In this document: in pieces, positions 6,496-23,540 of the stretch | Layout: every line of letters starts with the position of its first letter | Numbering within the stretch: position 1 is the first letter of the stretch | From: Acaryochloris sp. CCMEE 5410 | GTDB lineage: Bacteria; Cyanobacteriota; Cyanobacteriia; Thermosynechococcales; Thermosynechococcaceae | Reading direction: 5' to 3' | DNA: 32,355 nt | NCBI RefSeq assembly: GCF_000238775.2 | Contig: NZ_AFEJ02000012.1 | Location: forward strand, 1 to 32,355 | Notes under the pieces: generated by a model | Database searches by the model: none | The model's input: the letters and a program-made list of their open reading frames with translations, nothing else | What the model was told of the DNA's origin: nothing | Program-made: the position numbers and the translations under genes

Positions 6496-7549
6496 CTTTG
6501 TATAGCTCCAGTTCAGCTCGGATTTGTTCTTGGAGAGTGAGTTCTGAGGCGCTTAAGTGCAGCCCCATCGTGCGCTGCTGATGGGCAAGGGCAGAGCCAA
6601 CCACGAGGGCATCTGAGGACTTCTTCTGCTCCTCCTGACCCGATACGACGTTGCTAAGCAAGCCCCCATTAATGGCAGTCCCTCGCGCCATCTTGGTGTT
6701 CTGAACCGTGAGGGATTTGAGGACGGCTTGGGAGGATTTGAGGGTTTGGGCTTTCTGGCCCGTCTCCCCAACAGAGGTGGCAATCTCAGCCCCCGCTGTG
6801 GCTTGCTCTTTGCTAGCGGCACTGAGCTGCACGAGGGCTTGAGTGGACTCAATGGTGTTGACCACAGACTGCTGCACCTGCTCCCCCTGCTGCTTAATCA
6901 GGGCTTGACCATCCTCAGAGAAGACGAGCTGCGTCATCAGTTGGGGGAGTAAGGCTTTACGAGCCTCGTTGTTGCGGGCTTGGGTATACACCTGAAAGGG
7001 GTCTTGGGGATCCGAATAAATGGGGTCCTCAGATCCACTACCTCCTTGCTGGCTCCCGCTGGTGCCATTCGTGCCCAACTTGTCGTACTCAGAGAGGACG
7101 GTAGAGATGGACCCGCTTAGGATCCGCTTCAGGGAGAAGTTATCAATGGCGTCATAAATGGCTCGGCCTACCTTGTAGGCATCAAGCGCTTTCTGTCCAT
7201 ATTCATAAGCTTTAAGTAGCTTGCGTTGGGTCTCATTGATGGTCCTGGCCTGTCCCGGTTTCTGTTTAGGTCCAAGGACATTAAAGACCGTGCCAAGGAG
7301 ACCACTCGGAAGCTGAGCCGTGGGTACTTCCGTATAGGTGGACGTATCTAGAGGATTATCCTTGGCTATCGTCACATCCCCCGTGGGAATGGGCACATCA
7401 GGGAAGGTGGTGGGTGTGGTGGTAGTGGGGAGGGTGATATCGTCGCTAATCACCGGATCATCGTAGGACACCTGAGCATAGGCAGGAACGGTGATGACGG
7501 TGGCCTGTACCGATAGGATAACGATGGCTAAAAGGCGTTTACGCTGCAT
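6398..7549 (-). CDS. Secreted VirB5/TrbJ-like protein
   Basis: 383 aa from ATG 7549, chosen because it gives a proper signal peptide (MQRKRLL, hydrophobic core, VPAYAQ) where the longer in-frame start does not. The mature part has a Thr/Pro-rich linker, then helices rich in Ala, Gln and Leu (about 105-160 and 200-383) with coiled-coil character. This is typical of VirB5/TrbJ pilus-tip or periplasmic helper proteins. The start overlaps the end of the VirB4-like gene by 11 nt, indicating coupling. The C-terminal end overlaps the presumed VirB6 start. No catalytic motif. Assignment is by position, export signal and helical composition. Confidence 0.6.
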   Translation of the reverse strand: MQRKRLLAIVILSVQATVITVPAYAQVSYDDPVISDDITLPTTTTPTTFPDVPIPTGDVTIAKDNPLDTSTYTEVPTAQLPSGLLGTVFNVLGPKQKPGQARTINETQRKLLKAYEYGQKALDAYKVGRAIYDAIDNFSLKRILSGSISTVLSEYDKLGTNGTSGSQQGGSGSEDPIYSDPQDPFQVYTQARNNEARKALLPQLMTQLVFSEDGQALIKQQGEQVQQSVVNTIESTQALVQLSAASKEQATAGAEIATSVGETGQKAQTLKSSQAVLKSLTVQNTKMARGTAINGGLLSNVVSGQEEQKKSSDALVVGSALAHQQRTMGLHLSASELTLQEQIRAELELYKDERHRAQDQRALREQLSFNYLYIPGLYSEAAP

Positions 7550-8369
7550 GGTCTTCCACTCCAATGGTCTCAACTTCAATCCCTTGTTTGTTGGCCTGGG
7601 AGAGCCGATCACCAAAGTCCACTAATCCCGCAACGGGGTCATCAGGATAGCGAGACATCACCCGGTTGCGGGCTTTGGTTTGCTCTCCTTGGTTCGCACC
7701 GACCCCCAAGGTGAAGTTACTGGGGTTATGGGTGACAATCAGTTGCCGGGAGTCTCGCTGCCAGCACCAGTGGGACTGCTGAAGGGACTTGGAGGCTTTG
7801 AAGGATTCATGCTCAAATTTCTCAAGGATCTCGGACTGGAACCCAAATTCTGAGACCAACTGCTCACGGGCATACTTGTTGACGTGGCTGACAAACTTAT
7901 TCTGGAGGTTGGAGACAACCTTGGACGAACAGCTTGAATTCAGCAGGGTTTCTACCTCTGTCATCCCGATAAGGATGTTGCACTGCCACTTGCGGCCTGA
8001 GTTGGCGAGAGACCCCACCATCTCGGCAAAGATGGGACGGGTCAGTAGTTCCGAGCCTTCATCCACGGGTAATAGGGTGCGTTTGCCATTCATGGCTTTG
8101 CGAATTAGCAGATCAAACCCCGCCACCCCATACACGAGGGAGTCACTATCGTTATCCACGTTGGTTAATCCCAAGATTAGGGCATCCACGTTGGCGTCAA
8201 AGGAGCTGATGCCATTGATGGAATCGCCTAATGCCGTGGGGATGACGCCCTCCAGGAGCAGCTGCAGGTTCTCAAAGGTGCGCTGTAAGTCTGGGCCACA
8301 GTCATTGTCTTGGATATACTGCTTGAGCCAACCTTTGGCAAAAGCAACGAACTCCTCATAAATGGGCAT
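7539..8369 (-). CDS. virB4: VirB4-like ATPase, C-terminal fragment (Walker B)
   Basis: 276 aa that continue the VirB4-like ATPase. Residues 96-104 (GKRTLLPVDE) contain Walker B with Asp103-Glu104. SGRKWQCNILIGMTEVETLL follows, matching the VirB4 segment after Walker B, where RK and a sensor residue occur. The frame is open upstream of the ATG (reading SCFDAFHQANLERYTKAS and EEAAQ before Met), so the Met is internal to the original protein. The preceding fragment lies one base away; the break is near 8450-8470. The C-terminal end overlaps the VirB5-like start by 11 nt. VirB4 supplies energy for pilus and channel assembly. Confidence 0.75.
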   Translation of the reverse strand: MPIYEEFVAFAKGWLKQYIQDNDCGPDLQRTFENLQLLLEGVIPTALGDSINGISSFDANVDALILGLTNVDNDSDSLVYGVAGFDLLIRKAMNGKRTLLPVDEGSELLTRPIFAEMVGSLANSGRKWQCNILIGMTEVETLLNSSCSSKVVSNLQNKFVSHVNKYAREQLVSEFGFQSEILEKFEHESFKASKSLQQSHWCWQRDSRQLIVTHNPSNFTLGVGANQGEQTKARNRVMSRYPDDPVAGLVDFGDRLSQANKQGIEVETIGVEDHAA

Positions 8370-8422: not shown

Positions 8423-8653
8423 CTAAGTTGGCCTGATGGAATGCGTCAAAGCAAGACCTAAGGCCCGCTCAATTAGCAAATCCTCCATTGGGCTGGACTG
8501 GCCCGCCTCTCCCAAGGCAATGGCCTTAAGGATACGGAGCTTATTACGCTTGATAAATTTCCAGGCTTCCTCGTGGGTCGGCTGCTGAGAGTCATAGCCT
8601 GGTTCACCGGGTTTGGGCAGATCATCAATCCAGGAGACATCGGGCGTCTCCAT
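8423..8653 (-). pseudogene. virB4: VirB4-like ATPase, middle fragment in the third frame
   Basis: This 76-aa frame (METPDVSWIDDLPKPG ... EDLLIERALG) fits between the Walker A half and the Walker B half of the VirB4-like protein. The upstream frame is sensible up to PVDKATIT near 8660 and then turns into Pro/Arg-rich nonsense. This frame is sensible up to LIERAL near 8460, after which the next fragment continues. It is not an independent gene. It shows that the ATPase is split over all three minus-strand frames, each step equal to the loss of one base. Confidence 0.65.
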
Positions 8654-10683
8654 GACGTGATGGTGGCTTTGTCCACGGGCTGGTAGGTGGAAGACACATT
8701 GATCTGCTCTTGAGTTGCCATATAAGGTTCATAGCTGGATTTACCCGTGGGGGGTTGGAAGTCAAACCCGACAACATTCATCCCTTCCCGCTGACAGTAG
8801 CTGGTCATCTCCAGCATCAGCATGGTTTTGCCTGCCCCCGTTTTCCCGGTGACGAGGGTGTGATTGGGAAAGATATGGGCTAGATCCAGGTAGAAGGGGA
8901 TGGGCAGATCATGGCCTAACAGCATTATGCCTCGACGATCCATTGGGGCAGGATGGATTTGGGGCAGGGTGGGCAGCACTCTCGGGGACATGGTTTTATA
9001 CAGGTGATTCCCCCCGCCCGGTAAGGTGAGCATGGGGGCGGCACTGATGGCGAGGCTCGTACACCAGTGATGCTCAAATTTCTGGGTAATCTTGACGGCT
9101 TTGGTCCCCTCTAGCTTTTGAGCTAAGTCGTCCAAGTCGAGGTTAAGTTGGTCTACGGAATCCCGATAGAGGAAGATGGCGAAGGCGACCCAAAAGGGAC
9201 GATTGCCGTTGTTCATCCACTCTAGGTTTTTCTTTGTTTCCTCTAAGCGCTCTAGGGCAATGGGGTTCAGTTCTTTACGCTGGGCAGCATCCCCCATCTT
9301 GCGGATGGAGTTCCGCCCCGTCTGCTCCAGGATGGCTCGGGTCAGCCCGGATTTGATGGGCAGCAGTTCGGTGACCACACGAGCATCCAAGAACAGTTCT
9401 TCAGGGGTAGCGAGGGTGTCAAATAAGAATTTGATAAATCCCAATTCCGTGGAGTCTTGGACTTCTGGGATGGTTCGTAGTCCCTCGAATCGGAGTGCCC
9501 CGACATATTTGCCTTTACTCGGCAGGTAGGCGAGGCTTTCACCGAACTGAGGAACAGCGGGTTTCCCTTTCTCGGGTTCAAACAGGACCCCCAGGCTATG
9601 GAGATGATGCTCACTAACTACTGGATTGGGGTCTAGGCCCAGGTCGTCATAGCGAGTGTATTGGGGAATGGGGATGCTCTCTTCATGCAGCTCGGCGTAG
9701 TCCCAATCAAATAGCTCTTGGGCCGTGAGGGGCTGAATTTTATGACCTAAGCCTTCTGCGCCCGTGAGCATCCTCGTCATCCGCTTATAGGAGTTGGTAT
9801 AGGCGGCAAAGATGGCTTTCTCCCACTGCTCTTTGGACTGGTAGGCTTCCCCCATGACCTTTTGGGCGACGGTGTCATTCCAAAAGCCCGATACCCACTC
9901 GAACACCACATCAGCGGGAGAGTCCGGGGTGTCATAGTCTCCCCCCAGTCGCAACCGACATTTGGCTTGGTAGAGGAGGCGGGATTTGGCGATACGACCC
10001 TCAGCTTCTAGGGATTGCAGGTTCTCGGCATCGGATTGTAGTTGAGCGGTGGTCAGGGCATCCGTGGCCTTCCCTAGGGCCGTGGCCGTGGCAATCAAGG
10101 GGCCTGAGCAGTCTGCTCGGATATCCAAAATTGCTTTGAGGTCGGTGCCACCGAGATGACAGATCTTCTGGTTGCTTTTATTGAGCTGCTGTTTGGATTG
10201 GGCGGGGGTGACGGTCGGGTCTAAACCCAGCACGTCAAACATAAACGCAATTTTGATCTCTCGACTATTCCAGTGATGAAGGTGGAACCCAACGGTGACC
10301 CCTTCAAATTCAAACTGCCCATAGGTCTTGAGGCAGAAGTTATCTTGAATCCGTCTCAGGGGGTCTGTCTTCTTGGCCTTTGCCATAACGGGCATCCCCA
10401 CGTTGTCGAACCTTAAAGACGGGCGACCATCCATATACGTCGTGGGCTTACCTACCCGCTCCATCTGTTTGGAGGGACTGCGGCCAAAGACAAAAATGAT
10501 ACCGACGCTCGTTAAGGCGATAAAGAGGACGGCCAGCAGAAACCCAAATTTGATTAAGACGGCAAAACCCACCCCCAAAACGGCGATGGATGCTCCAAGG
10601 TAGAAGACGGGTATACCGTCTAGCATCGTGTTCACGGAGAGGATATCTCGTGTTTGACCTTCGTTAACGGCTTCAAAGTCCAT
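8473..10683 (-). CDS. virB4: VirB3-VirB4 fusion ATPase, N-terminal fragment (Walker A)
   Basis: 736 aa as read. Residues 1-75 look like VirB3: a short head, two adjacent membrane spans (about 24-44 and 45-67) and a basic exit. The long VirB4 N-terminal region follows, then Walker A GKTGAGKT at 613-620 within LVTGKTGAGKTMLML and VGFDFQPP shortly after. True coding ends near 8650, where the frame slips into the next fragment; the last 60 or so residues (TSWRRPMSP onward) are out of frame. AAAGGAGGA sits 6 nt before ATG 10683, an excellent ribosome site. Summing the three pieces gives about 1040 aa. Fused VirB3-VirB4 proteins are known in several T4SS lineages. Confidence 0.85.
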   Translation of the reverse strand: MDFEAVNEGQTRDILSVNTMLDGIPVFYLGASIAVLGVGFAVLIKFGFLLAVLFIALTSVGIIFVFGRSPSKQMERVGKPTTYMDGRPSLRFDNVGMPVMAKAKKTDPLRRIQDNFCLKTYGQFEFEGVTVGFHLHHWNSREIKIAFMFDVLGLDPTVTPAQSKQQLNKSNQKICHLGGTDLKAILDIRADCSGPLIATATALGKATDALTTAQLQSDAENLQSLEAEGRIAKSRLLYQAKCRLRLGGDYDTPDSPADVVFEWVSGFWNDTVAQKVMGEAYQSKEQWEKAIFAAYTNSYKRMTRMLTGAEGLGHKIQPLTAQELFDWDYAELHEESIPIPQYTRYDDLGLDPNPVVSEHHLHSLGVLFEPEKGKPAVPQFGESLAYLPSKGKYVGALRFEGLRTIPEVQDSTELGFIKFLFDTLATPEELFLDARVVTELLPIKSGLTRAILEQTGRNSIRKMGDAAQRKELNPIALERLEETKKNLEWMNNGNRPFWVAFAIFLYRDSVDQLNLDLDDLAQKLEGTKAVKITQKFEHHWCTSLAISAAPMLTLPGGGNHLYKTMSPRVLPTLPQIHPAPMDRRGIMLLGHDLPIPFYLDLAHIFPNHTLVTGKTGAGKTMLMLEMTSYCQREGMNVVGFDFQPPTGKSSYEPYMATQEQINVSSTYQPVDKATITSWRRPMSPGLMICPNPVNQAMTLSSRPTRKPGNLSSVISSVSLRPLPWERRASPAQWRIC

Positions 10684-11278: not shown

Positions 11279-12070
11279 TTATTGCTGGGCGTAGTTGAGT
11301 AGGGTCTGGAGTTGGTCAGGAGAGATTTTGGCCCGCTTTGCTGCATCCTCTGGAGACTTCCCCCAACGCATCTGGCGAATCATGCCGTTGACGCGCCAAT
11401 GCATTTCCGAGCGATAGCGATACGTCTTATCTCCTGACGCTCTAGCGATGTTCAGACCCCTTAAAAGCGTCGCTGGAGTGATACGGCTATCGGACACGTT
11501 GTTTTTAGCAGTGAGACTGGGTGATGTCTGCTTGGACACGGACATTCGTCGCACAGGAGAACGTTTGACGGTCTTAGGCTTGGGCAGGACTTTGGTTCTA
11601 CGTTGAAGGGTCAGGGGTTGAACCGCTGTCGTAGCTTGATGAACGCGAGTCCTCTCAGGTGGTTGACCCAGGCGACCTGTGAAGACTCGCGATTGCTCAG
11701 GGGTATGAGCAATGGGGGTGGGCACTCCAATCCGAGTGATGGCAGTACTGGGGGCACTGTCAGACCGATTGATCGTTAACTCCATTGAGGAGCGGTTGCA
11801 GCCCACTAAATCTAGGATTAAGTTGGTCGATTTCACCTGGGTATTGGGTTTCCAGGTCAGGTAAATCTTCTGGGTTTGGGGTTGGGGCTGATCCAAGCTC
11901 AAGTCAAAGATACCCCTCGTGCCCATATAGGCTTTGGAGACCCGGCACCCACTGGAGGTAAGGTCAATCAGGTGACCATGACCGGGCGCTATCTTGATGG
12001 TTTCCGCTGTGGCTGGGGAGATGAACAGCCCCAACCAGGCCGCTATAAATGCGGCAATGGTTTTATACAT
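11279..12070 (-). CDS. VirB9/TraK-like secreted protein
   Basis: 263 aa from ATG 12070, with AAGGA 8 nt upstream and a clear signal peptide (MYKTIAAF ... SPATAE). The mature N-terminus GHGHLIDLTSSG, the strand-rich segment QKIYLTWKPNTQ and TNLILDLVG resemble the beta domain of VirB9/TraK secretins. A basic Pro/Thr/Ser linker (about 130-190) leads to a C-terminal helical region (EDAAKRAKISPDQLQ) that I do not recognise. The same frame runs open upstream into the sigma-like gene, so an automatic caller may report one 700-aa protein; the internal start is much more credible. VirB9 forms the outer-membrane ring with VirB10. Moderate confidence. Confidence 0.6.
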   Translation of the reverse strand: MYKTIAAFIAAWLGLFISPATAETIKIAPGHGHLIDLTSSGCRVSKAYMGTRGIFDLSLDQPQPQTQKIYLTWKPNTQVKSTNLILDLVGCNRSSMELTINRSDSAPSTAITRIGVPTPIAHTPEQSRVFTGRLGQPPERTRVHQATTAVQPLTLQRRTKVLPKPKTVKRSPVRRMSVSKQTSPSLTAKNNVSDSRITPATLLRGLNIARASGDKTYRYRSEMHWRVNGMIRQMRWGKSPEDAAKRAKISPDQLQTLLNYAQQ

Positions 12071-13366
12071 GGCGTTTTTCCTTGGCAAGTTCGTCTGTTC
12101 GGGAGGGGGATTGCTATCAAAGACAGCTTCCTTCCGATGTTCACGGTGCGGATCTGGACCCGCCCGTGATGGAAATCCTCTAAGGCAATCAGATATTGCT
12201 GCTAATGGTCTGTGGATAAATTCGGTTACTGCTGGGCCGAATCCCAGATGTCCTCGCCCAATCGTTCCAGGCTCTCCCAATCCACGGCATCGCTGATCCG
12301 CTGCGGTAGGTTGATGCCCCGGTCGATCAATAGGCCCGTCACTGCAACTCCCACGAAGAACCAAAAGAGATTCCTGAGCATGGGTAATCACTCCTTTGAC
12401 TAAGTTGATAGCTTTGGTAGGAAGAGACTCTGTAGCGACGGAGGGAGTTTGGGGAGGATTTTGGGAATAAGCTGAAGGAGTAATACTGTTTTCGTAGCAG
12501 AAGGAAAGAGAAGCAGGCCAAGTGCTGAGATTTACTCGCTCCTGACCTACTTCTGGCTCTGAGGAATATCTGCTGAAACTTTGGGAAAATCCCAGTCGAG
12601 TATGTTCCAGCTGGTCTTTGGCTGCATTCACGAACTGAGCCATGCCAACCCGGAACCACTGATTGAGGAGATGGACGGGGATTTGATACTTCGGTGGAAT
12701 GAAAGGTGGAGGTGCTTTGATTAGGACGAGATTTGTCTTTGTCTCAGGTTCAATCTCGAAATCAAAGGACTCATCGTAATCGTCTTCATCTATATACAAT
12801 GATTCATCATTGATCGTAAATTCATGCCAGTCTGGGATTTCTTGGAACGAACGGCCCCAATAGAGTAAATCTTCGATATATTCCAGCTTTAGATTGGCTT
12901 TTTGAGCAATCTCTTCCAGATTGGCATCAGGAAACTGGTTTTGGAGTCTATAAACCCAATCAAGATGGACTTGTTTTTTTTCGGGCAATCTCAGTTGCTT
13001 GGGTCTGTTTTTATAGCAAAATCTGCGGATATATCCCCTAATCCAACCTCTAGCATAGGTGGAGAACTTGCAGCCTTTTGTAGAGTCGAATTTCCGCACG
13101 GCATGACGGATTCCCAGCATCCCCTCTTGGATCAGGTCTTGAGCATCATCCAAAGTCCATGCGTATTGTTTGGCGAGTTTCGCCACCAAACGAACATGGC
13201 CGATCATCAGCCATGACAAAGAGGTCTCATGGCCTCGCTTGGCTTTGCGGATCAGCTCCAGCTCTTGCTCTGGGTCAGGAATCGGGAAGCGGTGCAAGAA
13301 CTGGGTTAGATAGTCGGGTAAACGGATGCCCTCGGAAAAAGGGCTAGAAATCATAGCGGCAGTCAT
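11279..13366 (-). CDS. Sigma-70-like factor lacking region 4, frame running on into the VirB9-like gene
   Basis: ATG 13366 is preferred over ATG 13381, because GGAGGGCAAGCTC precedes it with 7-8 nt spacing. Numbering from ATG 13381, residues 54-121 are sigma region 2: GHVRLVAKLAKQYAW, DLIQEGMLGIRHAVRKFD and FSTYARGWIRGYIRR (core binding and -10 recognition). A region-3-like HTH (LEEIAQKANLKLEYIEDLL) follows. After an acidic stretch (IDEDDYDESFDFEIE) I see no region 4. Credible coding ends near 12400; the same frame has no stop until 11279 and overlaps a 51-aa gene and the VirB9-like gene. A lost stop or an indel near 12400-12660 is likely. As first gene of the transfer operon it may control transfer. 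Confidence 0.7.
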   Translation of the reverse strand: MTAAMISSPFSEGIRLPDYLTQFLHRFPIPDPEQELELIRKAKRGHETSLSWLMIGHVRLVAKLAKQYAWTLDDAQDLIQEGMLGIRHAVRKFDSTKGCKFSTYARGWIRGYIRRFCYKNRPKQLRLPEKKQVHLDWVYRLQNQFPDANLEEIAQKANLKLEYIEDLLYWGRSFQEIPDWHEFTINDESLYIDEDDYDESFDFEIEPETKTNLVLIKAPPPFIPPKYQIPVHLLNQWFRVGMAQFVNAAKDQLEHTRLGFSQSFSRYSSEPEVGQERVNLSTWPASLSFCYENSITPSAYSQNPPQTPSVATESLPTKAINLVKGVITHAQESLLVLRGSCSDGPIDRPGHQPTAADQRCRGLGEPGTIGRGHLGFGPAVTEFIHRPLAAISDCLRGFPSRAGPDPHREHRKEAVFDSNPPPEQTNLPRKNAMYKTIAAFIAAWLGLFISPATAETIKIAPGHGHLIDLTSSGCRVSKAYMGTRGIFDLSLDQPQPQTQKIYLTWKPNTQVKSTNLILDLVGCNRSSMELTINRSDSAPSTAITRIGVPTPIAHTPEQSRVFTGRLGQPPERTRVHQATTAVQPLTLQRRTKVLPKPKTVKRSPVRRMSVSKQTSPSLTAKNNVSDSRITPATLLRGLNIARASGDKTYRYRSEMHWRVNGMIRQMRWGKSPEDAAKRAKISPDQLQTLLNYAQQ
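12226..12381 (-). CDS. 51-aa single-span small protein
   Basis: Starts MLRNLFWFFVGV and ends WDSAQQ. Residues 3-19 form one membrane segment; the rest is amphipathic and acidic. AAAGGAG lies 8 nt before ATG 12381, and an in-frame TGA lies just upstream, so the start is fixed. It occupies the stretch between the recognisable sigma-like domains and the VirB9-like gene. The long frame through this region reads Pro/Arg/Gly-rich nonsense here, which argues that this small gene is the real coding unit. Function unknown; possibly a small accessory of the secretion complex. Confidence 0.6.
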   Translation of the reverse strand: MLRNLFWFFVGVAVTGLLIDRGINLPQRISDAVDWESLERLGEDIWDSAQQ

Positions 13367-13381
13367 GAGCTTGCCCTCCAT

Positions 13382-14246: not shown

Positions 14247-14459
14247 CTACCGCAACCTATTGACCCCCTCAAATCTTTTCACCACAAGCCTTTTTGATGC
14301 CAGAGACCCCAAACACTCAACAACTTCAAGAGCCTCCAACAATGTAAGAGACTGCGCCTCAGTCTGGTCTTTGGTCATAGTGAGTTTCTGTTGGTTAAGG
14401 TCAAAATCTTTCACAAATGAGCCATCGTCATGCAGGACAAATCTTTTAGGGAAAGCCAT
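14247..14459 (-). CDS. Unknown 70-aa protein coupled to the replication gene
   Basis: ATG 14459 (MAFPKRFVLHDDGSFVKDFDL) has AAGGAG 6 nt upstream and overlaps the end of the primase gene by 14 nt, a sign of translational coupling. The product is charged and soluble, with a C-terminal helix (LTLLEALEVVECLGSLASKR). No family recognised. Its position immediately after the replication primase suggests an accessory or copy-control role, which is inference. Confidence 0.55.
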   Translation of the reverse strand: MAFPKRFVLHDDGSFVKDFDLNQQKLTMTKDQTEAQSLTLLEALEVVECLGSLASKRLVVKRFEGVNRLR

Positions 14460-16527
14460 CAGTATCTCCTTCAAAATCCAAACAAACGCCAAACATTCGT
14501 TCCATTGCCCGCAGGGTAAACACGGCTGATAATTCTGTGTAAGGTTGCCACTGTTCCTCGGCCAACACCCAATACTCTCCGTCCCTCCAAGAGTAATCTG
14601 CAACTAACTTGCACTGCATCGCTAACTGATACCAATGGTCAAACTCCTCTCGTTCACTAAGTCGAGCTTCTCGTTCAATCGGCTGTTCACCATTAGTGAT
14701 GAGTTGAAGGGGAAGCTGTTCCTGATTTTGCGGCCGCAATTCTGTGTTTGCTTCACTAAGCGCTTTTCGCTGTGACTTCCTCGCTTTCAGTCGTTGCCGC
14801 CGACGCTGCTCATACTCAAGTTCACGCTGTTGTTGTCGCTTGGCTTTAGAGATTTTCTGCTGCAGGCCCGAAGGTAGGGATAAGTGCAGCTGATCCCAAT
14901 TTTGGATTGGAATAACCTTGGAGTTCCCCCCCAGACCCCCCCGATCTAGGTCTTCAGAATTCACAAGCGCCGCTTTCGCCGCCCTTTGGCCTTTAGGGGC
15001 CAGGGCGACGGCGGCTTGGATTCTCATCGTCATGATTACAAACCCTACATAAATATAGAGTTGTAAAAGATCCTTTAATTGATATAGTTCCAGCTTTCGC
15101 TGGTTTAAAAAGTGAGTATTGTTCGAACGTAGTTGTGTAATAGTCCCTTCCTGCGAGGGTTCTGGGGCTTTATGAAGGGTTTCTGGGGGTAAATGATGGG
15201 GGTGCCAGAGTTCTAGGTTTGACTTGCGGTATAAGGTTTTCTGGCTGGTGTGAGCTAGTTTTGCAATCGCACTAGCACGAGCTGCGATACCAGGGGGGAG
15301 TTTGCTGACTCTTCTTAATTCAAAGACGGCTTTTTTGATCCGGTTCTGGGCGGCTTCGCGCTTGGATTGGTGATAGCCAAAGTCGGCAGGAGCGACTTGT
15401 TTGTCGTGGTATTTGGCGTCTCGGGCAGGGGCTGAACCAGCGGGCCAGTAGTAGCGCATAGCCCAGGTTGCCACCTCATAACTACGGCGCTCGATTTCAT
15501 GCTGGTGGCGGCAATGTTCGTTAAAGCCTGGGGTGTTCTGAGCAGTTTGGCAAACGTATTCTGCGATCTGCTCTGGACTATCCATTCCCAAAAATACGCG
15601 GGCTTCGCAGGCGATGATCTTCAGCTTCTCGTTGGTTTGGCCGGGGCCGGTCCAGCCTTGGGGTTTCTCTTCGTGAATGCGCTCCTGCCAGGTGGCGAGG
15701 GAGGAGGCGTTACCGGATTTACGGACTTTGAAGTTTTGCTGCGCGTCTGCGATCGCATGGTGAAGACGACCCATGTCCTGGCCATCGGCGCATAGCTCAA
15801 AACAATCTAGCCAGTCTTCCAGGGACCAGGGGAGAGGGTTTAGATCGGTGTCGAGTGGATGGAAGCCGCTACCCGGCTGCATAGGGAGACGGAATGCAGC
15901 AAAGAGACTGTAGCCCTTACCTTTGGGCACATACCGCTTGGGGTTGGGGTAGAGTTCGCATTGACCTCCATAAAATTTGACGCCTTCAGCTTCCAGGTTG
16001 AGTTTGATGCACACACTCAACCAAAAACTACTGACGGATTCGGGCAGGGGGAGGTAGAGGTGTAAGCCGCCGCTATGGCTACTTTGACAAAGGAGTGAGC
16101 GGCAGATACCGATGTCTTCCAGGGCATGTCGGATCTTTGGAAGCCAATGGGGAGCGCTGGCTGGATGATAGCGAGAGTCCTTGTCTATATCGAGGACCAG
16201 CCAACGGGTCTGGGCATTGGGCCTCACTCCGATCAGACAGTCTGGGTCTTGATGAAGTGACCACAACTCCACGGGGGAGAGAGGGAATTTCTTCACCGTT
16301 TCCCAGTCAACGGGATTACCTTGTTCCGGGACTGACGCAAAGATCCAATCCCAGCCATTGAGGAAAAGTAAGGCCAATCTTTGACCCAATGGATCTGCTG
16401 GTAATGGGTCATGCTTAGGGCGTCTGGGATGCTGAAATACATAATCTGGGACATGGGAAGGCGAGCCATGTTGACGCTGAAGCATGTCTTGGAAATACTC
16501 CCAAATTTTAGATTGGGGTATTTTCAC
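14446..16527 (-). CDS. AEP-type primase/plasmid replication protein
   Basis: 693 aa from a GTG start at 16527 with no obvious ribosome site. The N-terminal 230 residues carry archaeo-eukaryotic primase (prim-pol) signatures: WLVLDIDKD (Asp113, Asp115, metal ligands), SSHSGGLHLYLPL (His156, nucleotide binding) and GGQCELYPNPKRYVPKG (Glu191, third acidic site). A helical middle region has an HTH-like stretch (IAARASAIAKLAHTSQKTLYRKS). A highly basic coiled segment (about 560-610, KAKRQQQRELEYEQRRRQRLKARK) follows. Iterons lie directly upstream, the usual setting of a plasmid initiator. It probably primes and/or initiates replication of this plasmid. A HIP1 octamer lies inside the gene at 15749-15756. 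Confidence 0.8.
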   Translation of the reverse strand: MKIPQSKIWEYFQDMLQRQHGSPSHVPDYVFQHPRRPKHDPLPADPLGQRLALLFLNGWDWIFASVPEQGNPVDWETVKKFPLSPVELWSLHQDPDCLIGVRPNAQTRWLVLDIDKDSRYHPASAPHWLPKIRHALEDIGICRSLLCQSSHSGGLHLYLPLPESVSSFWLSVCIKLNLEAEGVKFYGGQCELYPNPKRYVPKGKGYSLFAAFRLPMQPGSGFHPLDTDLNPLPWSLEDWLDCFELCADGQDMGRLHHAIADAQQNFKVRKSGNASSLATWQERIHEEKPQGWTGPGQTNEKLKIIACEARVFLGMDSPEQIAEYVCQTAQNTPGFNEHCRHQHEIERRSYEVATWAMRYYWPAGSAPARDAKYHDKQVAPADFGYHQSKREAAQNRIKKAVFELRRVSKLPPGIAARASAIAKLAHTSQKTLYRKSNLELWHPHHLPPETLHKAPEPSQEGTITQLRSNNTHFLNQRKLELYQLKDLLQLYIYVGFVIMTMRIQAAVALAPKGQRAAKAALVNSEDLDRGGLGGNSKVIPIQNWDQLHLSLPSGLQQKISKAKRQQQRELEYEQRRRQRLKARKSQRKALSEANTELRPQNQEQLPLQLITNGEQPIEREARLSEREEFDHWYQLAMQCKLVADYSWRDGEYWVLAEEQWQPYTELSAVFTLRAMERMFGVCLDFEGDTDGFP

Positions 16528-16630
16528 AGAATAATTTTTGTCTTGTTTACATTTGCATTTAAATTAATTTAAATAATTGGGTTGTCTTATAAGGCTACAA
16601 ACCAGTCACAGAAAGGGATTTTACAAAACT

Positions 16631-17066
16631 TAGTGCATAGATACGGAGATTTTAGTGTAGGCATACGGATAACATAGTGCATAGAAACGGAGAATATTGT
16701 CTCTTCCTTAAAGGGCCACCCAGCTTAGGTTAAGTGCCGATAAATGAAGTTGATTTTATTAAGACAAAAAATATATTAAGTGTAGGGATACGGATATTGA
16801 GACAATCTATCTTTTAGTGCTAGGATACGGAGAAATTTGTCTCATCCTGTCTTACACCTTGCTCGGTATCCAATAATTTAGGTCTTGATACTAAGTGCTA
16901 GGATACGGAGAAATTTGTCTCATCCTGTCTTACGCCTTGCACGGTATCCAATAATTTAGGTCTTGATACTAAGTGCTAGGATACGGAGAAATTTGTCTCA
17001 TCCTGTCTTACGCCTTGCACGGTATCCAATAATTAGGTCTTGATACTAAGTGCTAGGATACGGAGA
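16631..17066 (+). repeat. Eight iterons, consensus (T/A)AGTGCTAGGATACGGAGA
   Basis: Nineteen-base repeats start at 16631, 16653, 16675, 16778, 16815, 16893, 16971 and 17048. The first three are spaced exactly 22 bp, two helical turns. The core ATACGGA is kept in seven; the third has AAACGGA. Iterons bind the plasmid initiator, here presumably the AEP-type protein. Confidence 0.8.
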
Positions 17067-17110
17067 AATTTGTCTCATCCTGTCTTACGCCTTGCACGGT
17101 ATCCAATAAT
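16815..17110 (+). repeat. 78-bp tandem repeat carrying iterons 5-8
   Basis: Four near-identical units start at 16815, 16893, 16971 and 17048 (periods 78, 78, 77). Each holds an iteron, a constant TTTGTCTCATCCTGTCTTA stretch and CGGTATCCAATAATT. GGATAC of the iteron and GTATCC near the unit end form an inverted pair. The units differ at only a few bases (CACCTTGCTC or CGCCTTGCAC; one T lost in the third unit). The fourth is cut by the insertion sequence at 17111. Confidence 0.85.
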
Positions 17111-17209
17111 TTACTTGAGTTTGGACTAAGTTTAAATCTCCAGACAGAGTAAAATATCCCATGGCCCTTGAAAGCCTGAGCATAAGTTTTTCTGGTATTA
17201 ACTCAGCAG

Positions 17210-18410
17210 TTAAGCAGCGGTTTTTGAGACAATCTTTGCTTTCCTGCGTTTGGAGACTCGTTTTTTGACCGTTGGATATCGAGTTCTTGGTGGTTGAGAT
17301 TGGCCTTGCTTGCGTCCGGGTGATTTACCGCGAGTTTTTGGTGCTTGAGCAGGTGTTCCAATCGCCGCAATAATACTTGGGAATGCTTGAGCGACGCGTC
17401 CTGGTGATAGAACTTGTTGAGGAGACTGCCAGGGTAAAGGCGTATCCATACAGTCTGACCGAGCAAACCACAATTGCCAAGATATCATCCCAATCAAAGT
17501 ACTCCATCGCTCTGTCGCTTCATTGGACGTGAGTTGAGGGGTCGTCCAATAGAGCCGTTGTTTGGCAAATCGATACCAATGCTCAATGCTAAAGCGCTGC
17601 AGATATCTTCGCCATAATCGCTCCAGACTTGGCATGCATTCTCCAGTCCAGGCCAGCCAAAGCGGCTTAAACTTTCGTCGTTTACCTTTCGGTTGGATGA
17701 TCTCAACGCGCAAAATTTCCATTTCTCGTTTGGCCGAATTACGGAAATGGAATTGGCTCCAGCGAGTTACTCTGACCTGTCCAAGTTGGGTGTCTTCTAT
17801 CTCCAATATTTCGCTGGCTTCTGGATATGTATTAGGGGCATTCAATTTGAACTTATGTCCATGCTTACGAGGAGCCCCTCGTCCTGAATAAGCGAAGGGA
17901 ATACCATAGACACAGCGATTGGATGCTAAGCGCAATAACAGGTCGACTTCAATCCCTGCAGTGTGATTGAGAAAGATGCCATTACCGTAGTGACGGTCAA
18001 ACGCGGCTAGAGGACGCACCGGCAAATGACGACAGACTTGCTTTAATTGAAACGTGGCTTTGGTCAAAGCGGTCTCAAAGCTCGTGATTCGTTCATGGCG
18101 TAGGGGCAGTGCCCAATGCTGACTTTCGTCTGGGACCCAAGAAAGGGTGCTATAACTTTGGCCTACCCCGACAGTATGTCCCCCTTGATGATGAAAACCT
18201 CTGTCTTTGAGGGTCTTGGCCTCGGGACGCAGCCAAGGACTACTATCTCCCACGAAGAGCGGCTGGTCTTGAGCGGAAACTTGTCGAACTAAATACCGGT
18301 GAAGTTGGCACGATGGATACGACCATCATGCAGGGCTGAATAGGTACTCGACCATGACGACGGAAGATAGGATGTTGAGACAACACACAAATGAACGCAG
18401 GCTCGGACTC
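17210..18410 (-). pseudogene. Transposase of IS D (IS4-superfamily DDE), main part, frameshifted
   Basis: From 18253 down an open frame of 347 aa shows GDSSPW (first catalytic Asp), PLAAFDRHYGN (second Asp) and YLQRFSIEHWYRFAK, which fits the Y-(2)-R-(3)-E-(6)-K signature with the catalytic Glu. Its Lys/Arg/Pro-rich tail resembles a transposase family common in cyanobacteria. Upstream the N-terminal part is spread over other frames (LSQHPIFRR, then SSWSSTYSALHDGRIHRANF near 18300-18370). The very N-terminus (FDHLRQFRQTLYSC, DALFELMDAVLM) lies beyond the inserted element at 21229-21350. It is probably inactive unless the frame breaks are sequencing errors. Confidence 0.8.
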
Positions 18411-18695
18411 TGCTGCATAATCACGACTTCTCCGGTTGAGTGGCACTAACTTCTCCACCCCAACCAAAAAATATTGGCCAACCATTTTCGACAGGTAGAT
18501 ATGGAATTATGGTTGCAATCATAGGCAAAAATCAGCTCTGAATTCATACATATCACGAATGGAAGATCGTGATCTCATCCGGTCTATTCATGTATCTGTC
18601 CCTCCTTTTTTTCATCCTTCTTCTCCTTGTGCGTTTTAAGGTTAGATCTTGGGATCGTTCTCTCGTTGTTTTCTCCTCATGTGAACGGTCATTAC

Positions 18696-19441
18696 TCAGT
18701 TCTCTTCTGGCTTCAGGGTCAGTTTGCTGGTCAATTTCCGCATGGATTCTCCTCGGAGCAAGACCTTCATCGCATCATGGATAATCCGGTCGAGGATGGC
18801 ATCGGCGAGGGTGGGATCTTGATTTGTGAGTGCCATTGCTCCAGGGGCATTTGCGTGGCGAATAACAGGAGGCTTTACGGAAACGCTCGTCTAGGATATC
18901 GAGTACTTCTCGAGCTTCAAAGACAGACAGGGGATCTCTAAGCCATTCATCCAGCACCAATAGATCGTAGGCCGCTAATTGTTTTCGGAGTTGGGATAAG
19001 ACCCATCTCCTTTGGCCAGCTTCAACTCCAGCACCAGGTCAGCGGTTTGATATAGCGCACGCTATGGCCTTGCTTGCACAGATGATTTGCAAGGACCGAC
19101 GCCAAGAAAGACTTCCCTACACCGGTCGGCCCCAATAGAATCAATGACAGGTTTTCTTGGAGCCAATGGCCTTGAGCAAATTCAAGGAACTGGATTTTAC
19201 GGAGTCCTCTGGGGACATCGAAATCCACGGCATCTAAGGTGGCATGCACCGGCAGTCGCGCTTGCCTGAGTCGGCGTTGCATCCGTTGATTCTGACGCCG
19301 GATGTATTCGCGCTCTACCATCAAGGCCAGTCGTTCATCGAAGGACAGATCATGATAGGTGGGCATCGCCTGCTGTTCTCGCCAAGCTTCGAGTACGCCG
19401 GTGAGTTTCATTTGTTGTAGCTGTTCAATCATTGCTTGCAT
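18696..19441 (-). pseudogene. istB: istB helper ATPase, copy A, frameshifted
   Basis: Starts MQAMIEQLQQMKLTGVLEAW at ATG 19441, with GGGGAG 6 nt upstream and the istA stop 12 nt away. Walker A LLGPTGVGKSFLASVLANHL is intact. The frame breaks near 19020-19050 (after HSVRYIK) and resumes as VLDEWLRDPLSVFEAREVLDIL. A further break lies near 18850, and the protein ends [10 protein letters not shown] at 18696. IstB is the ATPase partner that helps IstA choose targets. Copy B of the element has a longer intact istB. Confidence 0.8.
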
Positions 19442-19453
19442 CGTTGTCTCCCC

Positions 19454-20993
19454 CTACGTCGCTTGATAATATTCGGACCCTCGGACATTGGCATGGTGAA
19501 TAGGAATCACCTTATGGGTTTCATCCGGTAAGGGTCGGATTCAAGTTGTTTGGAGCATGGACTTGAGATAGCGTTGGCCCACCATCCCCATAGCATTAGC
19601 CCGATTACAGGCGGCTTCCAACCTTTCAGCACCATGGGTGTTCTCAGATGTTGCACCCCTTTTAAGGCTCGAAATGCTTGTTCATCATGGGCTTTCTCTC
19701 AAAGATCTCTATCACTGTTGCTTCGTTGCCGGTCCAACATTCTGAGCCCAGGTGATGAAGGTCTCTCTCGATTGGTTTTGTGGGCTAAGTGCGCCGGTGG
19801 CATATGCCCTCTTGCGTGGAATGCTGAAATGAAACGCTGGAACGTTCATGTACCGCAATGCGCTGATGGTCATGGAAATCTGCACCAAAGATTCCGTAAT
19901 CTTGACCGATACCGATTGACCCACATAGCCATAAGGGACACTGTAATAGTGGCGGTTCACCTCATGTGATAATCAAAACTCACTTTCGCAGTTTTAAATT
20001 CGCCAAACTCAACGCATGGCTGGGCAAGGACCTCAGTTCCGGTGGTCCACTTGCTCAAATAATCTCGACGGGATAGACCATAGGATTCATGGTCCGATGG
20101 TGAGTTTCTCGAGTCCCGCTGCTATCGCTTCATTCAGTTGCTTGAAACTGGTAAGGTCTGATCTCTCAATGGCGCTAGGATATGACGCTCCACTTGCTGT
20201 ACCGCATTCTCCACTTTGGGTTATCCCGAGGGCATTTGGGGCGAGCGGGCAGAATAATCACGTTGTAGTGTTCCGCAAGTCCTGATAACTCCGATTGATA
20301 CCGGGCTCATAACGACACGGATCTGTGACTCCTGACTTGAGGTTGTCTGGAACGATAGCGACCGGCACCCCACCAAAGAAGGCCAAGGCCCGTTGATGAG
20401 ATCCGAGCCAGTTCTGATGGTTTGGCTTTCGGTCGCCTCTGCATAGGTGTAGTTACTCGCTCCACAGCAGGCTACAAATACTTGAGCTTGAGTCACCTCA
20501 CCGGTTTGGGATGGACCACCGGCACCGTCATACCGCAGTAGTCCACAAAATCTTTTCCGCTCCCTTGTGAATCTGGCGCATGGATAGCGAGTGCTGCTTT
20601 TCCACTGACGGTATCGACGGCAAAGCCACTATAGCTACAGTTCCAGTCTCCTCTCTCTTTACCCTCCATCCACAGTAGGCCCAGGGTGACCCCTTTGCGT
20701 TGCATCTCTCGATGCACATATTCGAAGTCAATCGCTGGCTTCTTACGGAGGACTGACGCTGACCTTTCCCAGCAAATGCTGGATATCACTATCACTCAGT
20801 TGGCTTAACTGGTCATAACTGAGAGATTGACCCTGGGCACGGCGCAGATAGTCCCGGACACTGGTACGGGAGATGAAGCAGCTACGAGCGATCTCCGATT
20901 ATTGTGGCCGAGTTCATGTAAACGGATAATTTCGCGAAATTTACTCATCGACAGGGTTGCTCCTTGACGTTTATAGGCCATTGCCATCTCCAT
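19454..20993 (-). pseudogene. istA: istA transposase, copy A, frameshifted
   Basis: Starts MEMAMAYKRQGATLSMSKF at 20993. Fragments in several frames follow the intact order: the HTH (FREIIRLHELGHN), KKPAIDFEYVHREMQRKG, the first catalytic region DFVDYCGMTVPVVHP, then VAIVPDNLKS and the Glu region KVENAVQQVERH in other frames. NRHYYSVPYGYVGQSVSVKI comes next, and the end is HANVRGSEYYQAT (TAG 19456-19454). At least five frame breaks. Not functional as read. Confidence 0.8.
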
Positions 20994-21426
20994 TCCTCTG
21001 GCTAATGCACAGAAGTTAGAGGTGGCCTGGCTAGGGATAATGACCTGTCGAAATGATGGTTAAGGGGTGGAGAAGTTAACTGCCACTATCCGGCGAAGTT
21101 GTTGCCACAGGGTGGAGAGTTTATTGCCACTTGACTGGCGAAGATAACTTCCATAGGGGTGAGAAGTTACTGCCATTCGACCGGAGAAGTCAACCTCCAC
21201 AGGGTGGAGAAGTTGGTGAGAATATGCAGACTCATCAATACCGCATCCATTAGCTCAAATAACGCGTCTTTACTGGCGCCAAGCAGCTATACAGAGTTTG
21301 GCGGAATTGACGCAGATGGTCGAAAATCATAAGGGCAATGAGTGTGATGATCATTGACCTTAAAGCAGTCGGTGTACTTCATTGACTGCTTTTCTCGTTG
21401 CTTTAGTCCAAACTCAAGTAATTAGG

Positions 21427-22938
21427 TCCTGGAGTCTGGCAAATTTCATCAAAGTTCAGCCTCCTTTCATTACCGCCAGAACAGGCGGTAACCTACTCTG
21501 AAGTGTGTGCCTCAGAGCAGTAACTCGAATTCAGCTAATGTTTCTCAAGCCATTAGGCTGCAATCCGAGTTGGTAGAATGAAGCGCTTCACGACTCCTTG
21601 CGTATTGCCATCCGTGATGGCCTGCTCACAAGCAGCCATTAAGACCGCTTGAGCCTGTTGCTGTCGGTGATGTTCAATCACTTGGGCAATTGAAATGAAT
21701 GGATCATCCCTCTGTTGAGAACAGCGCAGTTGAGCATACAAAAATGCAACGCTAAATGCACCAAAGAGTACCACTTGTGAATCGCTTCATAGTGTTGGAC
21801 GCGAAACTCCCCCAATCCCAAACATTGCTTGAGATACCAATAATCTGTTTCAATGGACCAGCGCTTTGAGTAGCGTTTCAGTATTTGGCCGCAGACAATG
21901 AGGTGTCTGTGCACAGGTAATACTTCGGGTGAGAATCCCGAGGGTGCCGCTTGGAGATGACCACACAGACGTCAAAAGGCACCTCATTTAATCGGCCCGT
22001 AATCGAGCGCGTTAGGTAGGTGTGCTTTGAGCCTGTCACTGTTTTTAACTCAACTGAGTCGTAGTGTTTGTGCTTGAGGTCTTTGTTCCATTGACTCAGA
22101 CGCTTGCCATCAAGAATGCGATTGGATTTGATAGCGCCCAAACAAAACCATCGCTTGCCTTGCCGCCGAACAAACTTGAGTAGTTTGGCGGAGGCATACC
22201 AGCTATCGAATAAAACGTACACCCGCCATTCTTTGGGTAATAGAGGCTGGAGCTGCTGAAGCATCTCCCGGACCAGTTGATACTTGGTTTGGAAGCGCAA
22301 TCGCTCCTCCTTGGCACGTCCCCGGTTCAAGTTGCGAACCGTTTTTGCCCGTAAATAGAGCCGATAGGCGAAGGGAACACTGTGGTTGCCAATTTGAACC
22401 CGACAACTCACATGCACCATCCCTTTCTTGTACTTGGGAGTATTGCGACCACTGGCATTGTGGTCATGCTGCCAATCCACCCCTTCCAAGGCATGGGTAT
22501 CCTTATCTTTGCTACTGGTCGAGTCATCAATACTCACATACACCACAGGAGAACTTCCTCCTCGCTGCACGCGCTCTATGACATCGGCCAGGTTGATTTC
22601 CCCAAGGCGTTTGTCGAGAGATTGCTCAGACCAGGTACTCACTCGTAAAAGTCAGCCACTGCACTGGCATCTGGAGCATCAACCCACTGAGCATACAAGT
22701 GGCTAAGGGTTTGCGGCCATTGCCCACAATCAATCCTTCAACAATACGCAGCACATGCTGCTGTTGAGGTTTAGATAACGGGATGCTCAAGTGTGAGAGG
22801 TACTGTTTTAGAGCCTGGTCTGGATGGATGATGCTTTTAGAATGACTACACCTTTGGGCAAACACGATGGTTAATGGCCTGAATTTACTACGGTGTGGTC
22901 TTTGATGGCCAATCAAGCAGTTTTGCCAGACTCCAGGA
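21427..22938 (-). mobile_element. IS element E (IS4 superfamily)
   Basis: A perfect 17-bp terminal inverted repeat TCCTGGAGTCTGGCAAA at 21427-21443 and its complement at 22922-22938 define a 1512-bp element lying 5 nt from the end of IS D. I see no convincing target duplication (left flank TTAGG, right flank GATAT), so neighbouring DNA may have been deleted. Confidence 0.8.
21553..22870 (-). pseudogene. Transposase of IS E (YREK-type DDE), frameshifted
   Basis: Read over four frame breaks the product includes VVYVSIDDSTSSKDKDTHALEG (first Asp), YVLFDSWYASAKLLKF (second Asp) and YSKRWSIETDYWYLKQ, an exact Y-(2)-R-(3)-E-(6)-K signature with the catalytic Glu. The longest piece is 254 aa (21878-22642). 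N-terminal pieces (KPQQQHVLRIVEGLIVGN, AQWVDAPDASAVADFY) and the C-terminal end FILPTRIAA lie in other frames. Every step corresponds to the loss of one base. The start codon is uncertain; GTG near 22870 is one choice. Confidence 0.75.
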
Positions 22939-23540
22939 GATATAGATTTCGGTGCGTGGCCTTGAAAATTGAACTGAAAAAAATCAAGCAATTCTGAAAA
23001 CTAACGGGAATCCGATACTAACTATCTCAGTGAACATGCTAACCGATCCCAATTATTCTCTCTGAGAGTAGAGGTAAACTTTACAGTGACTCAGGATTTT
23101 GCTGAATGACTATTTGCGAGTAACTCAATTAGAGTAATTAATTGAGAATATTCACACGAGTTCTCCACAGTTTACTCACAATATTTCTAAAGTTCTCCAC
23201 AGCCTAAAGGAGGTTTTCCACAGGTAAGAACGGGAGATTAAGGACTTCAGCTTTTTCTGGGGAATACTCAAAGAAGGAATTCTAGCTCGATCCTACGGTG
23301 TGTCTAGCTTTGAGTCTAGTCAATGATTTTCAAGAAAGTGATTGACAATCGCTCTAGTTGATCGCAAGATAGGACACCCAGCCTTAAGTGCATGCGCTCA
23401 ATATTGAGCAAACTATAGGGTCGAAGAAAGTTGTTCGACACTGACTGGTTTGATCAAAGAGGGCGTCAATTTCATACTTATTTTTTTTGTACAGAGACCA
23501 TCACTACCGACCTCACTGTTGTTCAAGGATGACCGAATTT
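22939..23540. other. Gene-free region with origin-like features
   Basis: No coding region is supported. It is AT-rich, has an inverted repeat CTCAATTA/TAATTGAG (23124-23131, 23139-23146) and the DnaA-box-like cluster described separately. The rest (23230-23480) shows nothing I recognise. Confidence 0.45.
23147..23222 (+). promoter_or_regulatory. DnaA-box-like cluster
   Basis: TTCTCCACA at 23161 and 23193 and TTTTCCACA at 23214 all read on the plus strand. The last fits TTWTNCACA exactly; the other two differ at one base. ATATTCACA just before 23157 is a further near match. Starts are 32 and 21 bp apart, about three and two helical turns, so the sites would face the same side. AT-rich DNA with an inverted repeat lies just upstream. 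Binding is inferred. Confidence 0.5.

Follow-up and report, generated by a model that had tools for sequence, protein, structure and literature searches.

In the IncQ plasmid RSF1010 (RepC, RepB′ and RepA), the priming enzyme belongs to the archaeo-eukaryotic primase (AEP) superfamily and is separate from the iteron-binding initiator. The Rep protein of ColE2 both recognizes the origin and primes, as described in the accessible text of PMC5862659. How replication starts in large cyanobacterial plasmids is largely unknown, and the accessible part of a 2024 AR-seq study called the information on their Rep proteins limited (PMC10899382). We analyzed a 32,355-bp stretch of DNA (the window), which is the entire contig C12 of the 8.09-Mb, 23-contig genome of Acaryochloris sp. 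CCMEE 5410 and has its closest plasmid matches in Acaryochloris. It carries a gene for a primase-polymerase of the AEP superfamily (hereafter the AEP) beside an array of repeats (iterons). Sequence comparisons with related plasmids make it probable that the AEP belongs to a two-component replicon, in which a separate initiator would read the iterons and an exchangeable enzyme would prime, a split similar to that of RSF1010.

As in RSF1010, the AEP lies apart from the candidate initiators, which are a 707-aa helix-turn-helix (HTH) protein and a 373-aa protein (R373), and RepB′ is among its structural matches. Unlike RepB′, the AEP has extra helical units and a long tail, and the initiators come from other families. 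The AEP resembles ColE2 Rep, RepE/RepS and PrimHYQ (accessible text of PMC5862659) in that a primase domain is followed by helical units, with no helicase domain seen in the AEP; unlike in those systems, the iterons here follow another protein. The AEP takes the same slot beside the HTH partner as the CyRepA1 and CyRepX Reps, whereas no sequence relation to CyRepA1, CyRepA2 or CyRepX was detected with the AEP as query (E 1e-3). The accessible parts of the CyRep papers (PMC10899382, PMC9978351 and PMC10079941) do not mention iterons or an HTH partner, and a literature search of open-access papers returned nothing on a cyanobacterial-plasmid AEP family or on an HTH/iteron partner of the CyRep enzymes. 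As far as these searches show, what is new is a cyanobacterial family of AEPs that forms part of replicons, the two array-bearing partner families that go with it, and the replacement of one enzyme by another among AEP, CyRepA1, CyRepX, PriCT-2 and DUF3987 enzymes.

The primase-polymerase and the adjacent array

The AEP superfamily is defined by motif I (hhhDhD/E), motif II (sxH) and motif III (hD/E) (accessible text of PMC5862659), and the window protein carries D113/D115, G-L-H156 and C-E191 accordingly. These key residues and R213 were invariant in alignments of 20 and 44 relatives, which bears out the prim-pol motifs DID, GGLH and CELYPN that the initial annotation had read in the 693-aa protein. 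The same annotation had proposed a structure prediction against RepB′ and prim-pol proteins. In the AlphaFold model the AEP domain was confident, and its best solved match was the CRISPR-associated PrimPol CAPP (Z 18.1, rmsd 3.4 over 197 aa); LigD-Pol (Z 9.6) and RepB′ (3h25, Z 6.8) were both far below CAPP. RepB′ was also matched as 3h20 (E 4e-5). Profile searches returned LigD-Pol (E 0.006) and CRISPR-associated PrimPol (E 0.11), and Pfam Prim-Pol was matched by 6 of the 44 members (best E 8e-5). When the window protein was the sole query, Pfam and PHROGs gave no match, and NCBIfam and the PDB searched by sequence gave weak LigD-Pol matches only. The conserved motifs, the profile and Pfam matches and the CAPP-like model identify the protein, by sequence and predicted fold, as an AEP-superfamily primase-polymerase, which would be expected to have the corresponding activity. 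It shares the His in motif II and an association with mobile elements with the Anabaena all3500-like AEP family; however, S-2L PrimPol, assigned to that family in the accessible text of PMC8065100, was a weak match (E 0.044), and CAPP was a far better structural match.

In the model two further helical units follow the AEP domain, and PriCT-1 was not among the Pfam families returned for the 44 members. The second unit had no family match, and its HTH-like label is a reading of helices and conservation. Beyond residue 450 the model is mostly of low confidence, a long helix at about 553–595 being more confident, and the structure searches returned no match for the C-terminal half, a result that is uninformative on its fold. 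The true start of the gene is uncertain because the frame stays open slightly beyond the called start (705 codons). Two runs of seven C lie inside the gene at about 14926–14943 of the window, and the homologue on plasmid pMB01 of strain Moss Beach (L052 9600–9670) splits into two open reading frames (ORFs) where the window gene has the C runs; sequencing error, decay and slippage are the alternatives for this region.

Eight iterons lie upstream of the AEP gene, the first three spaced 22 bp apart (Table 1), with an extended motif of AGTG-N5-ATACGGA followed by TTGTCTYA. The iteron pattern had 9 matches in the whole genome, 7 in the window and 2 on contig C19, and the pattern read backwards as a control had none. 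The commonest 9-mer of the intergenic region had 5 occurrences, and none of 20 shuffles gave more than 2. The eight iterons reported in the initial annotation are thus real.

Contig C19 (8,240 bp) is made up of a near-copy (98%) of window 17172–22947, which holds transposase genes, together with two iterons and the gene of the 707-aa HTH protein. On plasmid pREC2 (330 kb) of A. marina MBIC10699, the order is the 707-aa HTH gene, an unbroken ten-iteron array and the AEP gene. Window 16301–17113 matches one half of the pREC2 array region (98.4%) and C19 5766–6400 the other half (99.2%), and the two matches abut on pREC2 with an overlap of 2 bases (TA). Therefore, either an insertion sequence (IS) block split the array into 8 and 2 iterons, or C12 and C19 are two assembly paths. 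The two copies of the block, that in the window and C19 1–5765, are 98% identical, so that there were either two insertions or an assembly split. The pairing of AEP gene and iterons, which the initial annotation had suggested seeking on other cyanobacterial plasmids, recurs on pREC2 and pMB01. As evidence against its own proposal that annotation had envisaged another Rep gene elsewhere on the replicon with iterons of its own, together with no binding by the 693-aa protein. This was found in part: on pREC2, pMB01 and C19 the array is flanked by a further candidate initiator gene.

Table 1. Positions of the features described; coordinates refer to the window unless a contig or locus is named.
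Feature	Position	Strand	Remarks
AEP primase-polymerase gene	14446..16527	-	693 aa, GTG start
AEP catalytic domain, residues about 46-230	15838..16392	-	AlphaFold model and PDB matches
Motif I D-I-D, residues 113-115	16183..16191	-	invariant in 20 and 44 members
Motif II G-G-L-H, residues 153-156	16060..16071	-	H156 invariant
Motif III C-E-L-Y-P-N, residues 190-195	15943..15960	-	E191, P194, N195 invariant
AEP helical domain, residues about 236-360	15448..15822	-	AlphaFold model
AEP helical unit, HTH-like reading, residues about 384-441	15205..15378	-	AlphaFold helices and conservation
Iteron 1	16632..16649	+	repeat of ~18 bp
Iteron 2	16654..16671	+	repeat of ~18 bp
Iteron 3, degenerate	16676..16693	+	repeat of ~18 bp
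Iteron 4	16779..16796	+	repeat of ~18 bp
Iteron 5	16816..16833	+	in 78-bp tandem
Iteron 6	16894..16911	+	in 78-bp tandem
Iteron 7	16972..16989	+	in 78-bp tandem
Iteron 8	17049..17066	+	in 78-bp tandem
78-bp tandem (step 77-78 bp) holding iterons 5-8	16816..17113	+	
IS block splitting the iteron array	17114..22936	.	second copy on contig C19
Two C19 iterons and 707-aa HTH gene, beyond the IS block copy	L034 (contig C19) 5781-8036		
707-aa protein gene, C-terminal XRE HTH, next to iterons	L034 (contig C19) 5913-8036; L056 5473-7596		
Two tandem AEP genes, Synechocystis pSYSG	L059 13695-15104 and 15590-17317		
Triple repeat scoring at least 11	window, pREC2, pMB01, L148, L150, L096, L043		enzyme AEP
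Triple repeat scoring at least 11	L152, L153		enzyme PriCT-2
Triple repeat scoring at least 11	L154		enzyme CyRepA1
Triple repeat scoring at least 11	L157, L158		enzyme CyRepX
Triple repeat scoring at least 11	L155		hypothetical protein plus DnaB

Array type and the gene across from the primase

We compared the arrays beside related primases and beside related partner genes. A single tblastn query (E 1e-6) served to detect each partner in the stretch examined, which is short at some loci. An Acaryochloris metagenome-assembled genome (L061) carries an intact AEP 79% identical to that of the window beside ten copies of another repeat, and this AEP is flanked by the divergently transcribed R373 instead of the HTH protein. 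In strain Moss Beach, pMB01 and pMB05 encode AEPs that share 96.8% identity over 379 aa; pMB01 has the HTH-type array and partner, and pMB05 has the R373-type array and partner. The 12-mer of the latter array, TATACGCCGGAG, occurs with the same 25/32-bp rhythm 10 times on pMB05, 9 times on a Chroococcidiopsis plasmid and 6 times on an Allocoleopsis plasmid, and the last two plasmids have a DUF3987 enzyme and no AEP within the fetched stretch. R373 arrays with variants of their own were found on a Chondrocystis plasmid, whose enzyme matches CyRepA1, and on a Gloeobacter plasmid with a DUF3854 enzyme. All 14 R373 loci examined had 6–14 repeat copies, and 20 shuffles of each gave at most 2–3.

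The predicted fold of R373, in a low-confidence model (mean pLDDT 55), and its iteron arrays are like those of the winged-helix initiators RctB, RepE and Pi; unlike these, R373 had no Pfam match better than E 0.09. The first matches of the model were RctB (E 7e-5) and RepE (E 4e-3), and a second structure search gave RctB (Z 9.0) and Pi with iteron DNA (Z 7.4), where a Z under 8 may reflect only a common arrangement.

In regards to the HTH family, 46 plasmid records carry relatives of the 707-aa protein. In at least 19 of the 40 listed, a priming enzyme is encoded on the same strand no more than 1.4 kb downstream, namely AEP (9), CyRepX (5), CyRepA1 (3) or PriCT-2 (2). This count includes near-copies and is a lower bound, the enzyme matches listed being the best 60 (records listed were 60 of 66 for AEP, 40 of 46 for HTH, 60 of 148 for CyRepA1 and 60 of 117 for CyRepX). 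A triple repeat with steps of 21–23 bp was sought between the HTH gene and the next enzyme gene, since a test for 12-mers misses the more degenerate HTH-type arrays. It scored at least 11 of 16 at 13 of the 18 HTH loci, with different enzymes (Table 1). The same score was reached in none of the 65 AEP upstream kilobases without a detected partner and in none of 346 other kilobases; at a score of at least 9 the counts were 1 of 65 and 4 of 346. This test was designed after the data had been seen, with shuffles and the 346 other windows as controls; the regions of L043, L090 and L096 are longer than the 1-kb controls, and the step at L158 is 21 bp. The extended motif of the window was also found at L147 (6 core copies) and L048 (3 core copies), where the HTH proteins are 54–55% identical to that of the window genome and the AEPs only 28–33%.

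These comparisons suggest that the iteron type follows the gene across the array from the primase, and not the primase, in both partner families. The reader of the iterons would then be a protein other than the AEP, because near-identical AEPs occur with different arrays, the R373 array occurs without an AEP, and the HTH-type triple repeats occur across enzymes. The proposal of the initial annotation that one protein is a self-sufficient initiator and primase is accordingly disfavored.

Two other explanations bear on the same gene order. Iterons act as operators and centromeres in other systems, the HTH partner has an XRE domain as repressors do, and a ParB gene precedes the HTH gene on pREC2, so the repeats might form a centromere or a copy-control or operator array, with the HTH protein as repressor or partition adaptor and replication starting elsewhere. 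We consider this unlikely, in that a priming enzyme is repeatedly encoded next, beyond the array, in both partner families, those enzymes include the experimentally supported CyRepA1 and CyRepX families, and R373, in its low-confidence model, resembles replication initiators. Alternatively, the AEP might serve repair, conjugative transfer or defence and stand beside the array incidentally, as its closest solved fold is a CRISPR-associated PrimPol and VirB4-like and other transfer-type ORFs lie nearby; however, it fills the CyRepA1/CyRepX slot beside the same partner family and was found on a 13-kb plasmid with ParA/ParB, and we regard this explanation as very unlikely.

The AEP family at large

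Of 72,556 plasmid records, 66 carry a relative of the AEP; all 60 listed bear cyanobacterial names, and in nearly all of these the relative is annotated as a hypothetical protein. A further search showed that 335 genome stretches encode AEP relatives, of which 80 were kept; no relative was found in viral contigs with patterns from the single window protein. Among 110 AEP loci, 12 also had R373 and 9 had the HTH partner within the stretch examined. Arrays of 12-mers (1 mismatch, at least 4 copies) were present in 7 of 75 AEP upstream kilobases, all at R373 loci, in comparison with 18 of 678 other kilobases from these loci and none of 75 shuffles. On this result we no longer regarded iteron arrays as a general trait of the AEP family.

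Several observations weigh against a separate initiator. Neither R373 nor the HTH partner was found in the stretch examined at 89 of the 110 AEP loci. Since most members have no visible partner or array, they may work alone, as ColE2 Rep does, or with a distant partner. The AEP of pMB02, 97.6% identical to that of pMB01, is accompanied by no partner in the 8-kb flanks fetched, and these contain no array upstream of it; the AEP genes of pMB01, pMB02 and pMB05 are split or truncated in their records, and pMB05 also carries a CyRepX homologue. In the triple-repeat test, 5 of the 18 HTH loci scored below 11, namely L090 (10), L147 (9), L149 (9), L048 (7) and L151 (6), and the scores of L048 and L151 were no better than those of shuffles. 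With the 12-mer test, at least 4 copies were found in 5 of 16 HTH regions (window, pREC2, pMB01, L150 and L090). The C-terminal XRE domain is the only part recognized in the HTH protein, the R373 model is of low confidence, and a profile comparison of R373 with the HTH protein gave no alignment and no relation. Two genomes (G030 and G055) have 3 and 5 core copies of the ATACGGA motif upstream of the AEP and no HTH gene next to it; in both, an HTH homologue of 54–55% identity is encoded on a different contig, and its fetched flank showed no such array.

Either action in trans or recognition of the motif by the AEP could account for the last arrangement. A longer motif pattern (at most 1 mismatch) had one match each in G030 and G055 beside the AEP, one in G056 on a contig other than that of its AEP, and no match in 5 other genomes. 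None of the 73 genome loci with 1.2 kb of sequence upstream of the AEP had more than one ATACGGA core there, which shows that the core is not shared by the AEP family as a whole. Upstream of the AEP at L044 and L045, the ATACGGA motif adjoins the AEP and the HTH gene is on a separate contig; these are the observed instances of an array separated from its HTH partner.

The AEP itself could thus be the initiator, with its C-terminal HTH-like unit or basic tail binding the iterons, the same protein priming, and the HTH gene serving as a regulator. The helical unit after the AEP domain, the array that stays by the AEP in G030 and G055, the many loci with no partner in the stretch examined, and the two AEP genes of Synechocystis plasmid pSYSG, for which no Rep is named in the accessible part of PMC10899382, are consistent with this explanation. 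However, near-identical AEPs adjoin two unrelated array types, the same array types are found with unrelated enzymes, and a 4-copy 12-mer array was present in none of the 65 partner-free AEP upstream kilobases. We therefore judge it fairly unlikely and retain a separate, iteron-reading initiator.

The tandem AEP genes of pSYSG are candidate Rep genes, the Rep of this plasmid being stated as unknown in the accessible text of the 2024 AR-seq study (PMC10899382). Of the reads in the final library of that screen, 99% came from pSYSX and pCC5.2 (accessible text of PMC10899382), which is mild evidence against a pSYSG AEP sufficing within a 1.5–2.5 kb fragment. The AEP (E 1e-3) matched 5 Synechocystis records, each of them pSYSG or a B12 plasmid of 33 kb; neither pSYSX nor pSYSA was among the records matched at this threshold, and no homology to Slr7037 or Slr6031 was detected. 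In the window genome, CyRepX homologues were found on contigs C3–C6 and CyRepA1 homologues on C4, C5, C7 and C10; none of either was found on C12, and the genome search found no Rep_3 protein.

The independent cases are fewer than the rows of these comparisons because some contigs were counted twice (L035 and L061, L042 and L067, L036 and L063, L037 and L062), others are near-copies (L152 and L153; L074 and L094 of one strain; three Fremyella/Tolypothrix plasmids; two L. boryana plasmids), and the window, pREC2 and pMB01 are close relatives.

Seven Nostoc-type loci (L119, L120, L121, L123, L124, L125 and L131) share a protein of ~312 aa about 2–3 kb upstream of the AEP, which may be ParM/actin-like. 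Near the AEP of the window, a 700-aa protein (11279–13381) has only a sigma-70 region 2 recognized, and on pMB01 an annotated sigma-70 gene (L052 12661–14274) lies downstream of the AEP. Two window ORFs (8473–10683 and 7539–8369) jointly match one 1015-aa DUF87/VirB4-like protein of pREC2 (~22% identity), which suggests a split or broken transfer ATPase.

Proposed replicon and its implications

The gene order, the arrays, the enzyme exchanges, and the motifs and predicted fold of the AEP are established from the sequences. On the favored reading, with initiator and primase as separate proteins, the iterons would mark the origin region of the Acaryochloris plasmid. The 707-aa XRE-HTH protein, whose gene lies across the array from that of the AEP (on C19 here), would bind the ten-iteron array and open the origin. 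The AEP would then lay the first primer and may extend it, and host helicase and polymerase would be recruited and follow. Initiator and array would together serve as the address, and the priming enzyme would be exchangeable among AEP, PriCT-2, CyRepA1, CyRepX or a DUF3987 protein.

A wider possibility, which we regard as evenly poised from the comparisons made here, is that large cyanobacterial plasmids follow a modular grammar, in which a few iteron-reading initiators with their arrays are combined with swapped enzymes and the named Reps are the swappable half. If so, near-identical primases would serve different arrays in one cell, which would help explain the coexistence of many large plasmids.

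The analysis adds to the little that is known of these plasmids a primase-polymerase family on 66 plasmid records, including pSYSG, and two initiator-like families with arrays. It predicts for minireplicons that the priming enzyme can be exchanged when initiator and array are kept. If this is true, the pair of initiator and array, and not only the enzyme called Rep, should guide incompatibility typing and vector design.

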